NCBI GenBank assembly: GCA_029781465.1
Contig: JAKOWQ010000183.1
Coordinates: 1-36,429 of the forward strand
Direction: 5' to 3'
DNA length: 36,429 bases
DNA from: Pseudomonadota bacterium
GTDB taxonomy: Bacteria; Pseudomonadota; Alphaproteobacteria; Sphingomonadales; Sphingomonadaceae
Position numbers and translations under genes: made by a program. Shown in pieces: positions 13,950 to 17,016 of this stretch; the first letter of the stretch is position 1, and every line of letters begins with the position of its first letter. The notes beneath the pieces were generated by a model. That model was not told the origin of the DNA and did no database searches. It saw only the letters and a list, made by a program, of their open reading frames with translations.

Positions 13950-14843
13950 CTAATCAATCTTCCCTGCATTCCTGAGCAACAGAGCTTCGCAAGGCGTTTT
14001 GGGTCGGTAAGATTGAAACTCCCTATGCCCAACCTTCAGGCCTAGCTCCTGCATAAGCTCGCGATCATAGCCGGAATAGAGCACTGCAATTCCGGCGCGC
14101 GCCAATTTGTCTCTTGCTCCACCATTCTTGCGGAGGCGCTTCATGAAGTCGTCCTGCTTTGCGACTCCTGAAATCAGTACGCGAGAAACGGGAGTTTCGA
14201 GGCAGTTTTCGAAGAGCTTTACAAGTCTTTCTGTGCCGCCTTTCGGCTTCATGATCTCATCACGCAGATCGTCACTAATCGAATTCCAGAAGTTCGGTGT
14301 GTATGCGAAGTCACGCACCATCCACCAGATGTTGCCGGTTCCCTCGGCAGAAAAACTGGTCTTTTTATCCTGATTCTCTCCCGACCGCAGATAAGCCTTT
14401 CGTGCTCGCGCCAGACCGACTGCACATGTGGACGCAGATTCGTTTACTCTGAGTAGGACGCAAAGCTGTTCAAGCGCTTCGTGGGGTATCATCCAGCCGG
14501 ATCGACCTCCCGTCGTAGATTTGACGTCGACCTCCCTGCCACCGATCTTTAGGTCAAGGATAATGCCACGGGGCACCTGCAACCAGTCGCGAAGCAAATT
14601 CTCGAACTTAGTTCCGAGATAGGTTTTCTCAGTTTTTTCAAGTTGCGAGAGGAAGAATCGATTGGTCCGTGCCGTGTCGATTACCTCATCAATGGCTGAA
14701 CGAAAAAACGATCTCAATCTCTCTTCGAAAATCTCTTTCCCGCCGACGGCTGCCAGGAGATCGGACTCGAGTGCATGGAGGTCGTCATAGTCAATGTGGC
14801 CCGATGGCAGTGGCTGATGGCCGCTATCGCTAAGAATGTTCAC
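13950..14843 (-). CDS. Type II restriction endonuclease, NaeI family
   Basis: 297 aa; QLEKTEKTYLGT, LDLKIGGREVDVKST (D-x8-D-x-K spacing as in NaeI D86/D95/K97), GVAKQDDFMKRLRKNGGAR all resemble NaeI as recalled. GTG start with GTGA overlap with the MTase stop. Confidence 0.88.
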   Translation of the reverse strand: MNILSDSGHQPLPSGHIDYDDLHALESDLLAAVGGKEIFEERLRSFFRSAIDEVIDTARTNRFFLSQLEKTEKTYLGTKFENLLRDWLQVPRGIILDLKIGGREVDVKSTTGGRSGWMIPHEALEQLCVLLRVNESASTCAVGLARARKAYLRSGENQDKKTSFSAEGTGNIWWMVRDFAYTPNFWNSISDDLRDEIMKPKGGTERLVKLFENCLETPVSRVLISGVAKQDDFMKRLRKNGGARDKLARAGIAVLYSGYDRELMQELGLKVGHREFQSYRPKTPCEALLLRNAGKID

Positions 14844-15799
14844 GCCACAGCTCGAACCGAAAAGACCTTTTGAACCGCGAGTGCAATCTTAAGATTGTTA
14901 GCAACCGCCTTCGCCACTGGCGGCGGAAATGCATTCCCAACTTGGCGATAAGCCGTCGTCTTGCGGCCATAGAACTGCCAGTTGTCAGGGAAGCCTTGGA
15001 TGCGGGCAACCATTCGAACGGTTAGGCGCGGCATACCACAAAAATCCGCTTCGGGCGCTTCTTCGGCAATCGACCTGCCTTCAACGCCCAATGCCGCCCA
15101 AGCCTTCCTCGCACGGGTTGGTCCCAAGTCTGGTCCGCCATGCTTCTTGGATCCACCAACAATGGTCGGCGCAATGTCGTTCGCCAATTCAGCCCAACGT
15201 TTTACGCCGAGCCAACCATTTGCACCCATCAGATCGCGAAGGGTTTCACCGACCGTCGGTGGATTATGCGGCAATACATCAGGCCAGTCGAATGCTTCGA
15301 CTAGGTCGTTGCGCAGGGCGACAATGACAACACGCGGCCGCAGCTGGGGAACGCCAAAATCCGATGAGTTCATCAGGCGCCAGTCGATTGTGTAGCCAAG
15401 TTTCTTGAACTCGGCCTTCAGAAATAGGCGATAATTTTCAAAAACTGGCGAGAGGAAGCCTCTGACGTTCTCGATCATCACGGCTTTGGGACGAATTTCA
15501 TCGATCAGGCGAATGGCCGCAGGGAAGAGATTGCGTTCATCCTTTTCACCCAACTGCCGACCGGCAACAGAGAACGGGGGGCAGGGCAGGCCGCCAGTGA
15601 GTATATCGACACCTTTGAATGGCCGACCATCGAACTGGTTCATGTCAGCCGTTCGCACATCCCATTGGGGCCGGTTGAGTCGAAGTGTCTTGGCGAAGTC
15701 AGGTTCGATTTCAACCAACGCAGTGTGGTGAAACCCGGCCTGCTCAAGCCCTAAAGCTTGGCCTCCAGCACCTGCGCAAAATTCAATCGAATGCATCAT
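14840..15799 (-). CDS. DNA (cytosine-5-)-methyltransferase, partner of the NaeI-family REase
   Basis: FCAGAGGQALGLEQAGF, GGLPCPPFSVAGRQ (PC motif), ENVRGFLSP (ENV motif), QVGNAFPPPVAKAVA; AAGGAG RBS; ATG at 15796 may be preferred over 15799. Confidence 0.95.
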   Translation of the reverse strand: MMHSIEFCAGAGGQALGLEQAGFHHTALVEIEPDFAKTLRLNRPQWDVRTADMNQFDGRPFKGVDILTGGLPCPPFSVAGRQLGEKDERNLFPAAIRLIDEIRPKAVMIENVRGFLSPVFENYRLFLKAEFKKLGYTIDWRLMNSSDFGVPQLRPRVVIVALRNDLVEAFDWPDVLPHNPPTVGETLRDLMGANGWLGVKRWAELANDIAPTIVGGSKKHGGPDLGPTRARKAWAALGVEGRSIAEEAPEADFCGMPRLTVRMVARIQGFPDNWQFYGRKTTAYRQVGNAFPPPVAKAVANNLKIALAVQKVFSVRAVA

Positions 15800-15817
15800 T
15801 CGCTCCTTTGAGCGACA

Positions 15818-15846
15818 AGAGTATGTTCTTTATCCGTTCTCGTCAA
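15818..15846 (-). promoter_or_regulatory. Candidate promoter of the R-M operon: TTGACG-17 bp-TACTCT, containing GTTC-N7-GTTC (15825-15839)
   Basis: -35 TTGACG (15846-15841), 17-bp spacer, -10 TACTCT (15823-15818); the spacer holds GAACGGATAAAGAAC, matching the alphaproteobacterial LexA box form GTTCN7GTTC. Confidence 0.6.
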
Positions 15847-16914
15847 TCACTCCGCCGCGTTCACCCCGCCTGCCGCAAACATATCCGGCTCGCTCCCCTC
15901 GTCCGCGGCGTCATTCGCCCCGGCAACCTCGCCCTTGGCCTTGCGCCTTGCGTCGAAGCTTGACCAGACGTCGTTCCAGTTGCCCTTGGTCGCGGCCTTG
16001 GAATATTCGGTCGCGCGGGTTTCGAAGAAGTTGGCGTGTTCCACCCCGTTGAGCAGCGGGGCGAGCCAGGGGAGGGGGTGGTCCTCGATCATGTAGATCG
16101 CGGGCAGGCCCAGCTGGCTCAGGCGCCAGTCGGCGATGTAGCGGATGTAGCGCTTGATTTCCTTGGGGCTCATCCCCGGGACCGGGCCCAGCTCGAACGC
16201 CAGGTCGATGAAGGCATCTTCCAGCCGCACGGTCTTCTGGCAGCAATCGATGATGTCTTCCTTGACGCTCTTGGTCAGGCACTGGCGCTCGGCGCAGAAG
16301 GCGTGGAACAGGCGGGTAATGCCCTCGCAGTGCAGGCTCTCGTCGCGCACCGACCAGGAGACGATCTGGCCCATGCCCTTCATCTTGTTGAAGCGCGGGA
16401 AGTTCATCAGCATGGCGAAGCTGGCGAAGAGCTGCATCCCCTCGGTAAAGCCGCCGAACATCGCGAGGGTGCGGGCAATATCCTCGTCGCTGTCGACCCC
16501 GAAGGTGTGCATGTAGTTCGCCTTGTCGGCCATCTCGGTATATTCGAGGAAGGCCGAATACTCGGTCTCGGGCATGCCGATGGTATCGAGCAGGTGGCTG
16601 TAGGCGGCGATGTGGATCGTCTCCATGTTGGAGAAGGCGGCCAGCATCATCTTGACCTCGGTCGGCTTGAACACCCGCCCGTATTTCTCGTGATAGCAAT
16701 CCTGCACCTCGACATCGGCCTGGGTGAAGAAGCGGAAGATCTGGGTGAGCAGGTTGCGCTCATGCTCGGAAATCTTCTGCGCCCAGTCGCGGCAGTCCTC
16801 GCCCAAGGGAACTTCCTCGGGCATCCAGTGCACCTGCTGCTGGCGCTTCCAGAAATCGTAGGCCCAGGGATATTCGAAGGGCTTGTAGGTCTTGCGGGCT
16901 TCGAGAAGGGGCAT
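15847..16914 (-). CDS. nrdB: Ribonucleoside-diphosphate reductase subunit beta (class I)
   Basis: MPLLEARKTYKPFEYPWAYDFWKRQQQVHWMPEEVPLGEDCRDW; SWSVRDESLHCEGITRLFHAF; start placed at MPLLEAR. Confidence 0.95.
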   Translation of the reverse strand: MPLLEARKTYKPFEYPWAYDFWKRQQQVHWMPEEVPLGEDCRDWAQKISEHERNLLTQIFRFFTQADVEVQDCYHEKYGRVFKPTEVKMMLAAFSNMETIHIAAYSHLLDTIGMPETEYSAFLEYTEMADKANYMHTFGVDSDEDIARTLAMFGGFTEGMQLFASFAMLMNFPRFNKMKGMGQIVSWSVRDESLHCEGITRLFHAFCAERQCLTKSVKEDIIDCCQKTVRLEDAFIDLAFELGPVPGMSPKEIKRYIRYIADWRLSQLGLPAIYMIEDHPLPWLAPLLNGVEHANFFETRATEYSKAATKGNWNDVWSSFDARRKAKGEVAGANDAADEGSEPDMFAAGGVNAAE

Positions 16915-17016
16915 CTTACGACTCCGGAATGAGATCAGCGAACGAGGATAGCGCAAAGCCCCCTGCGGCCGAAGCCGAGGGGGTGTGCGAAGCTGGGGAT
17001 AGGATGGGGTGGAGGG

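Follow-up and report, generated by a model that had tools for sequence, protein, structure and literature searches.

A predicted LexA operator in the promoter of a NaeI-type restriction-modification operon and its conservation in Alphaproteobacteria

A type II restriction-modification (R-M) operon of a Sphingomonadaceae bacterium, encoding a C5-cytosine methyltransferase (M) and a NaeI-family endonuclease (R), is very probably a member of the LexA (SOS) regulon of its host, repressed by LexA and derepressed upon DNA damage. The features that point to this are present in the DNA itself: an operator, the promoter geometry around it, the order of the genes, an intact NaeI-type endonuclease, the LexA box of the host, and the conservation of the box at related loci. 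LexA binding, repression and induction at M-R would then follow from the way LexA works at such sites. The window, by which we mean the whole stretch of DNA analysed (36,429 nt), is an entire contig (G000:C4) of a 2.59-Mb genome bin, and the SOS regulon of the host was read from individual stretches of this bin.

Results

Predicted operator and promoter of the M-R operon

The sequence GTTCN7GTTC occurs once in the whole window, at 15825-15839, and, as the preliminary description had claimed, it lies in the -35/-10 spacer of the R-M operon, between TTGACG and TACTCT and upstream of M-R (Table 1). Read on the minus strand, TTGACG is followed by a 17-nt spacer containing GAACGGATAAAGAAC (15839-15825), TACTCT, AAGGAG, and the methylase ATG at 15799, and the exact box overlaps the predicted promoter of M. 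The motif by itself is no evidence, because 0.8 matches are expected by chance in the window and 52 of 100 shuffled versions contain one; the earlier caveat of about one chance match per window was thus well placed. The predicted -10 element agrees with the consensus at 3 of 6 bases, and no M promoter with TTGACG/TACTCT was reported for the window by a generic sigma-70 scan. Despite the weak -10 and the miss by the scan, this promoter is supported by the arrangement TTGAC-N2-GAAC-N7-GAAC-ATA, which is kept in identical register in 10 Sphingomonadales loci, the window counted. A leader hairpin (fold -8.8 kcal/mol, z -1.9) carries the ribosome binding site of M in and next to its loop. This hairpin was considered as a conserved second control and rejected, since the window leader folds but the hairpin is not kept in relatives.

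Table 1. Predicted and annotated features of the M-R operon region (window coordinates)
Feature	Position	Strand	Basis
R gene, NaeI-family type II restriction endonuclease, 297 aa	13950..14843	-	PF09126 E 2.6e-50; PDB 1ev7 E 6.4e-28
M gene, C5-cytosine methyltransferase, 319 aa, first in operon	14840..15799	-	PF00145 E 8e-71; TIGR00675
Short leader with AAGGAG ribosome binding site	15800..15817	-	inside 6-bp hairpin TCGCTC-AAAG-GAGCGA
Probable -10 TACTCT, weak match	15818..15823	-	sequence; ATA immediately 3' of box in the 10 Sphingomonadales loci
LexA operator (predicted)	15825..15839	+	exact GTTCN7GTTC, GTTCTTTATCCGTTC; minus strand reads GAACGGATAAAGAAC
-35 element TTGACG	15841..15846	-	sequence; TTGAC equidistant from box in the 10 Sphingomonadales loci (window counted)
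nrdB (ribonucleotide reductase beta), upstream neighbour, outside the R-M operon proper	15847..16956	-	NF007186 E 2e-176

M, R and their neighbourhood

The M and R reading frames share 4 nt. The profile alignment of R spans positions 16-250 of 288 in PF09126, and residues 30-268 of the NaeI structure 1ev7, which comprise the catalytic and DNA-binding regions. Residues E81, D97, D106 and K108 of R align with E70, D86, D95 and K97 of 1ev7, the active site of NaeI, and at least 82 of 83 homologues retain them. The same alignment places a valine, not a lysine, at the position of NaeI L43; a topoisomerase-like variant of NaeI was therefore rejected, and R is expected to be an endonuclease.

The upstream gene nrdB is on the same strand as M, and its stop codon touches the -35 element. 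Because the gap between nrdB and M is only 47 bp, read-through from nrdAB could give LexA-independent transcription of M-R. A linked C-protein gene (small HTH) was sought between nrdB, M and R, where none was found in the 47-bp gap or the 4-nt overlap. A codon-usage model of the core genes of the window does not recognise M and R, which suggests that they were acquired by the host. M is also located directly downstream of nrdB in L053-L055, L057-L060, L139, L143 and L147-L149. The R-M operon occupies the nrdB site in several Sphingomonadales genera, yet is found in just 10 of 301 genomes of the order; this reflects either an old shared insertion that was lost many times or a hot spot for insertion. 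In Novosphingobium sp. UBA6722 (L053:5163-5846), which is the closest relative, the match to R starts at residue 70, and the N-terminus may be frameshifted. Two 40-kb viral contigs from IMG/VR (L237 and L238) carry a solitary relative of M (62-63% identity), possibly an anti-restriction methylase, and neither R nor a LexA box. No homologue of R was found in phage records; with these records devoid of R, and with box and R both missing beside the two viral M genes, a phage origin of M-R was rejected.

NaeI and NgoMIV endonucleases both recognise GCCGGC. Since one M family pairs with NaeI-like as well as with NgoMIV-like endonucleases, this M family probably recognises GCCGGC too. The observed/expected ratio of GCCGGC is 0.58 in 145 kb, and other palindromes are equally low or lower, so that avoidance of GCCGGC is not distinctive and was discarded as proof of specificity.

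LexA box of the host

The host lexA gene (G000:C204; TIGR00498, 168.6 bits) has two exact GTTCN7GTTC boxes just upstream. Two boxes are also present at recA, one each at recN, dinG, uvrD, mmcB and SRAP, and one that rmuC has in common with the divergent formate-tetrahydrofolate ligase gene. Judged from the boxes at these genes, the LexA box of the host is GTTCN7GTTC, as in Caulobacter crescentus, for which this operator is tabulated (PMC9578287). Deriving the box from the host lexA and recA promoters, as had been advised, thus gave the same form at both. The dinG box, GTTCCTTTTCCGTTC, and the window box differ at two spacer bases, and with a matrix built from the SOS-gene boxes, the window box ranks among the top 11 of 75 non-training sites of the genome. 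Most genomic matches to GTTCN7GTTC are noise, since the host genome contains 82 of them as compared to 66 for a reversed control pattern.

Conservation of the box upstream of M

We compared 97 loci, i.e. 96 M homologues and the window; 80 were fetched by protein similarity alone, and 17 (window included) came from genome and plasmid searches. An exact GTTCN7GTTC is located within 150 bp upstream of M at 83 of the 97 loci, many of which are closely related Rhodobacteraceae and not independent. The background of the loci themselves predicts 0.46 boxed loci, and shuffles gave 0.4 with at most 3. When M was clustered at 80% identity, the box was found in 17 of 29 clusters; NaeI is present in 19 of the clusters, and 14 of these have the box. 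Among 301 genomes drawn across the order without selection on M, all 10 NaeI systems (window and L139 included) have the exact box. Draws from the class and phylum, likewise not selected on M, yielded six further NaeI systems, four with the exact box; as for the other two, G120 contains GTACTTGTTTTGTTC and G057 has no convincing copy. The exact box is missing from five alphaproteobacterial NaeI loci, of which L062, L127, L135 and L142 have copies with one mismatch, and L137 a poor copy only. The preliminary description had suggested orthologous loci as a check on the box, and they bear it out. Its picture of an isolated oddity does not hold, as the box is the rule among NaeI systems of Alphaproteobacteria and is found again with NgoMIV and EcoRII.

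The position of the box varies from about -29 to -101, and its orientation flips. In L057 and L139, it is inverted and shifted, and lies across the -10 of TTGACT-16-TATGTT. Conservation of a box whose place moves argues for selection on LexA binding rather than for an inherited fixed promoter. A second box between M and R, for separate control of R, was found in none of the 97 loci except for an incidental match in L142.

Box, partner endonuclease and host LexA

Among alphaproteobacterial loci, leaving out L111 (whose contig ends after M), the box is present in 80 of 85 with a NaeI or NgoMIV partner versus 2 of 7 with another or no partner (Fisher p 1e-4). It is retained where NaeI is replaced by an NgoMIV-type enzyme (L058:4951-5811, L061:4960-5802 and L131:4948-5808), and is found in one of two further NgoMIV loci from the class draw. 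A third partner, an HNH protein of roughly 190-240 aa that may serve in repair or as a further restriction enzyme, follows M in L105, L125, L126, L128, L130 and L055; among these loci, only L055 has the box.

GTTCN7GTTC is present at every alphaproteobacterial host lexA examined. In the host bin of L112 (labelled Acidobacteriaceae), it is absent both at lexA and at M. It is also absent at M in two Akkermansia bins with NgoMIV systems; one of these bins has no lexA match, and the other has a match below the family cut-off only. Across the loci compared, the presence of the box follows the host LexA specificity, which agrees with the box form proposed in the preliminary description for this host.

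Box in unrelated R-M families

Most of the other C5 methylases examined in Alphaproteobacteria as a control have no box. Some of the boxed ones belong to other R-M systems, namely Dcm-Vsr-EcoRII (L166 and L168) and Eco47II (L157), although the latter box is from an AT-rich genome and could be due to chance. Of 11 genomes with EcoRII-C in the class, nine have a Dcm-type methylase upstream of the enzyme, with the order M, Vsr, R where checked. An exact box is located at the methylase start in five of these nine EcoRII/Dcm/Vsr systems (L195, L197, L198, L201 and L202); in L198 and L201, it lies just within the longest reading frame but ahead of the following start codon. LexA control of type II systems in Alphaproteobacteria therefore seems to have more than one origin. 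The EcoRII-type methylases checked (L168, L195, L198 and L201) have an N-terminal helix-turn-helix, and two layers of control are possible in boxed systems of this kind. The wider proposal, that unrelated families (NaeI, NgoMIV, EcoRII/Dcm/Vsr) have each been wired to LexA at the methylase promoter such that under-methylation leads to self-cutting and thereby to more methylase, could go either way.

Discussion

According to the proposed mechanism, LexA would bind GTTCTTTATCCGTTC, filling the -35/-10 spacer of the M promoter, and hold M and R at a low basal level. DNA breaks would activate RecA (RecA*), LexA would cleave itself, and both genes would be expressed at once, with translation of R following that of M on the overlapping frames. 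As to the purpose of this control, a damage-gauged R-M system is the most likely one: a shortfall of methylation or the cutting of foreign DNA would produce breaks and hence more LexA cleavage, upon which more M would restore protection of the chromosome and more R would strengthen restriction. LexA would thus fill the role that dedicated C proteins have in other type II systems. Such a feedback loop, in which self-cutting raises the methylase, is attractive because SOS is known to be triggered by imbalance of type II R-M (PMC3874152). The feedback loop has live alternatives in inducible defence and in a simple damping of expression, and these readings are not mutually exclusive.

Two readings would take the main LexA out of the picture. 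A chance match in the AT-richer spacer of a promoter, with no regulatory role, would suit the number of matches expected in the window and the small excess of genomic matches over the reversed control; nevertheless, it is rejected as next to impossible given 83 boxed loci out of 97 against about 0.5 expected, and a full set of 10 in the order-wide draw. It is also very improbable that another repressor with the same half-sites, such as a phage-type or S24-family LexA paralogue, binds the box instead of the main LexA. Weak S24-type matches below the lexA cut-off do occur in several of these genomes, but most of them are partial and fall on the peptidase half; moreover, the box agrees with the boxes that these hosts have at lexA and recA, and it is lacking in the L112 host, whose lexA is likewise without one.

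The remaining two readings keep LexA and differ in what its control is for. That LexA serves mainly to keep basal expression low and to delay R on entry into a new host, with damage induction as a by-product, is rather unlikely. The order of M first and R second with an overlap fits it, as do the lack of a C-protein gene between nrdB, M and R and the mostly unboxed state of solitary or HNH-linked relatives. However, joint repression of M and R gives no differential delay of R from LexA, and the loci are apparently resident, with the nrdB site common to several genera. Slightly better placed, albeit still unlikely, is SOS-inducible antiviral defence as the sole purpose, where phage or conjugative DNA would elicit SOS and thereby more restriction. 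Operon-wide control predicts induction of R, and the box is common to EcoRII-type and NgoMIV-type systems, both of which accord with defence. Yet M would be induced as well, and restriction must precede the build-up of SOS, so that, for the infected cell itself, the response would be late.

Control of R-M systems is normally ascribed to their own C proteins, to the methylase or to promoter strength. If the class-wide LexA operator is real, restriction damage would directly set the expression of R and its methylase, closing the loop. A LexA operator on R-M systems would explain, in a way open to test, how such systems escape autoimmunity and remain resident, and it predicts more restriction in DNA-stressed cells, with an effect on gene transfer. 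Defence and DNA-damage response appear to be linked here, as almost all related alphaproteobacterial systems have the LexA box.

With the alphaproteobacterial LexA regulon described in Caulobacter crescentus, M-R shares the operator, its core-promoter position and the host clade (PMC9578287). The known targets of that regulon are repair, polymerase and division genes, whereas here the target would be a type II R-M operon, which is not among the targets in the SOS papers searched. With the type IIE system NaeI (PDB 1ev7 and 1iaw; PF09126), it shares the endonuclease family, the four catalytic residues and a C5 methylase partner. The NaeI locus of Rhodococcus opacus (L141), in contrast, has another layout, with M divergent and HNH and vsr genes beside R, so that operon and regulation differ. 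Neither form of LexA-type box, GAACN4GTTC included, has an exact copy in L141, and the idea of a clade-specific GAACN4GTTC box at this actinobacterial locus was dropped. No description joining NaeI or type II R-M with LexA control was found in the open-licence literature.

The nearest descriptions found there are two, Caulobacter ScmA and SymE. ScmA is a solitary YGCCGGCR methylase, along with the unlinked vsrA, which is SOS-induced (PMC12907096). This pair shares with M-R a C5 methylase, the bacterial class, a core GCCGGC motif, which is probable for M, and an SOS link, which is predicted for M-R, but its damage-induced gene is vsrA, and neither an R gene nor a LexA-controlled M is described for it. 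In E. coli SymE-SymR, a LexA site overlaps the promoter of a toxin module, as predicted at M, although that module is a type I toxin-antitoxin with an antisense RNA rather than an R-M system (PMC1891008). In a review of R-M regulation, SOS is presented as a result of R-M action, and a LexA site is given for SymE only (PMC3874152). C-protein-controlled type II systems, covered in the same review, resemble M-R in using transcriptional control to match the levels of M and R; they possess a C gene for this purpose, whereas M-R has none and the host LexA is its proposed regulator.
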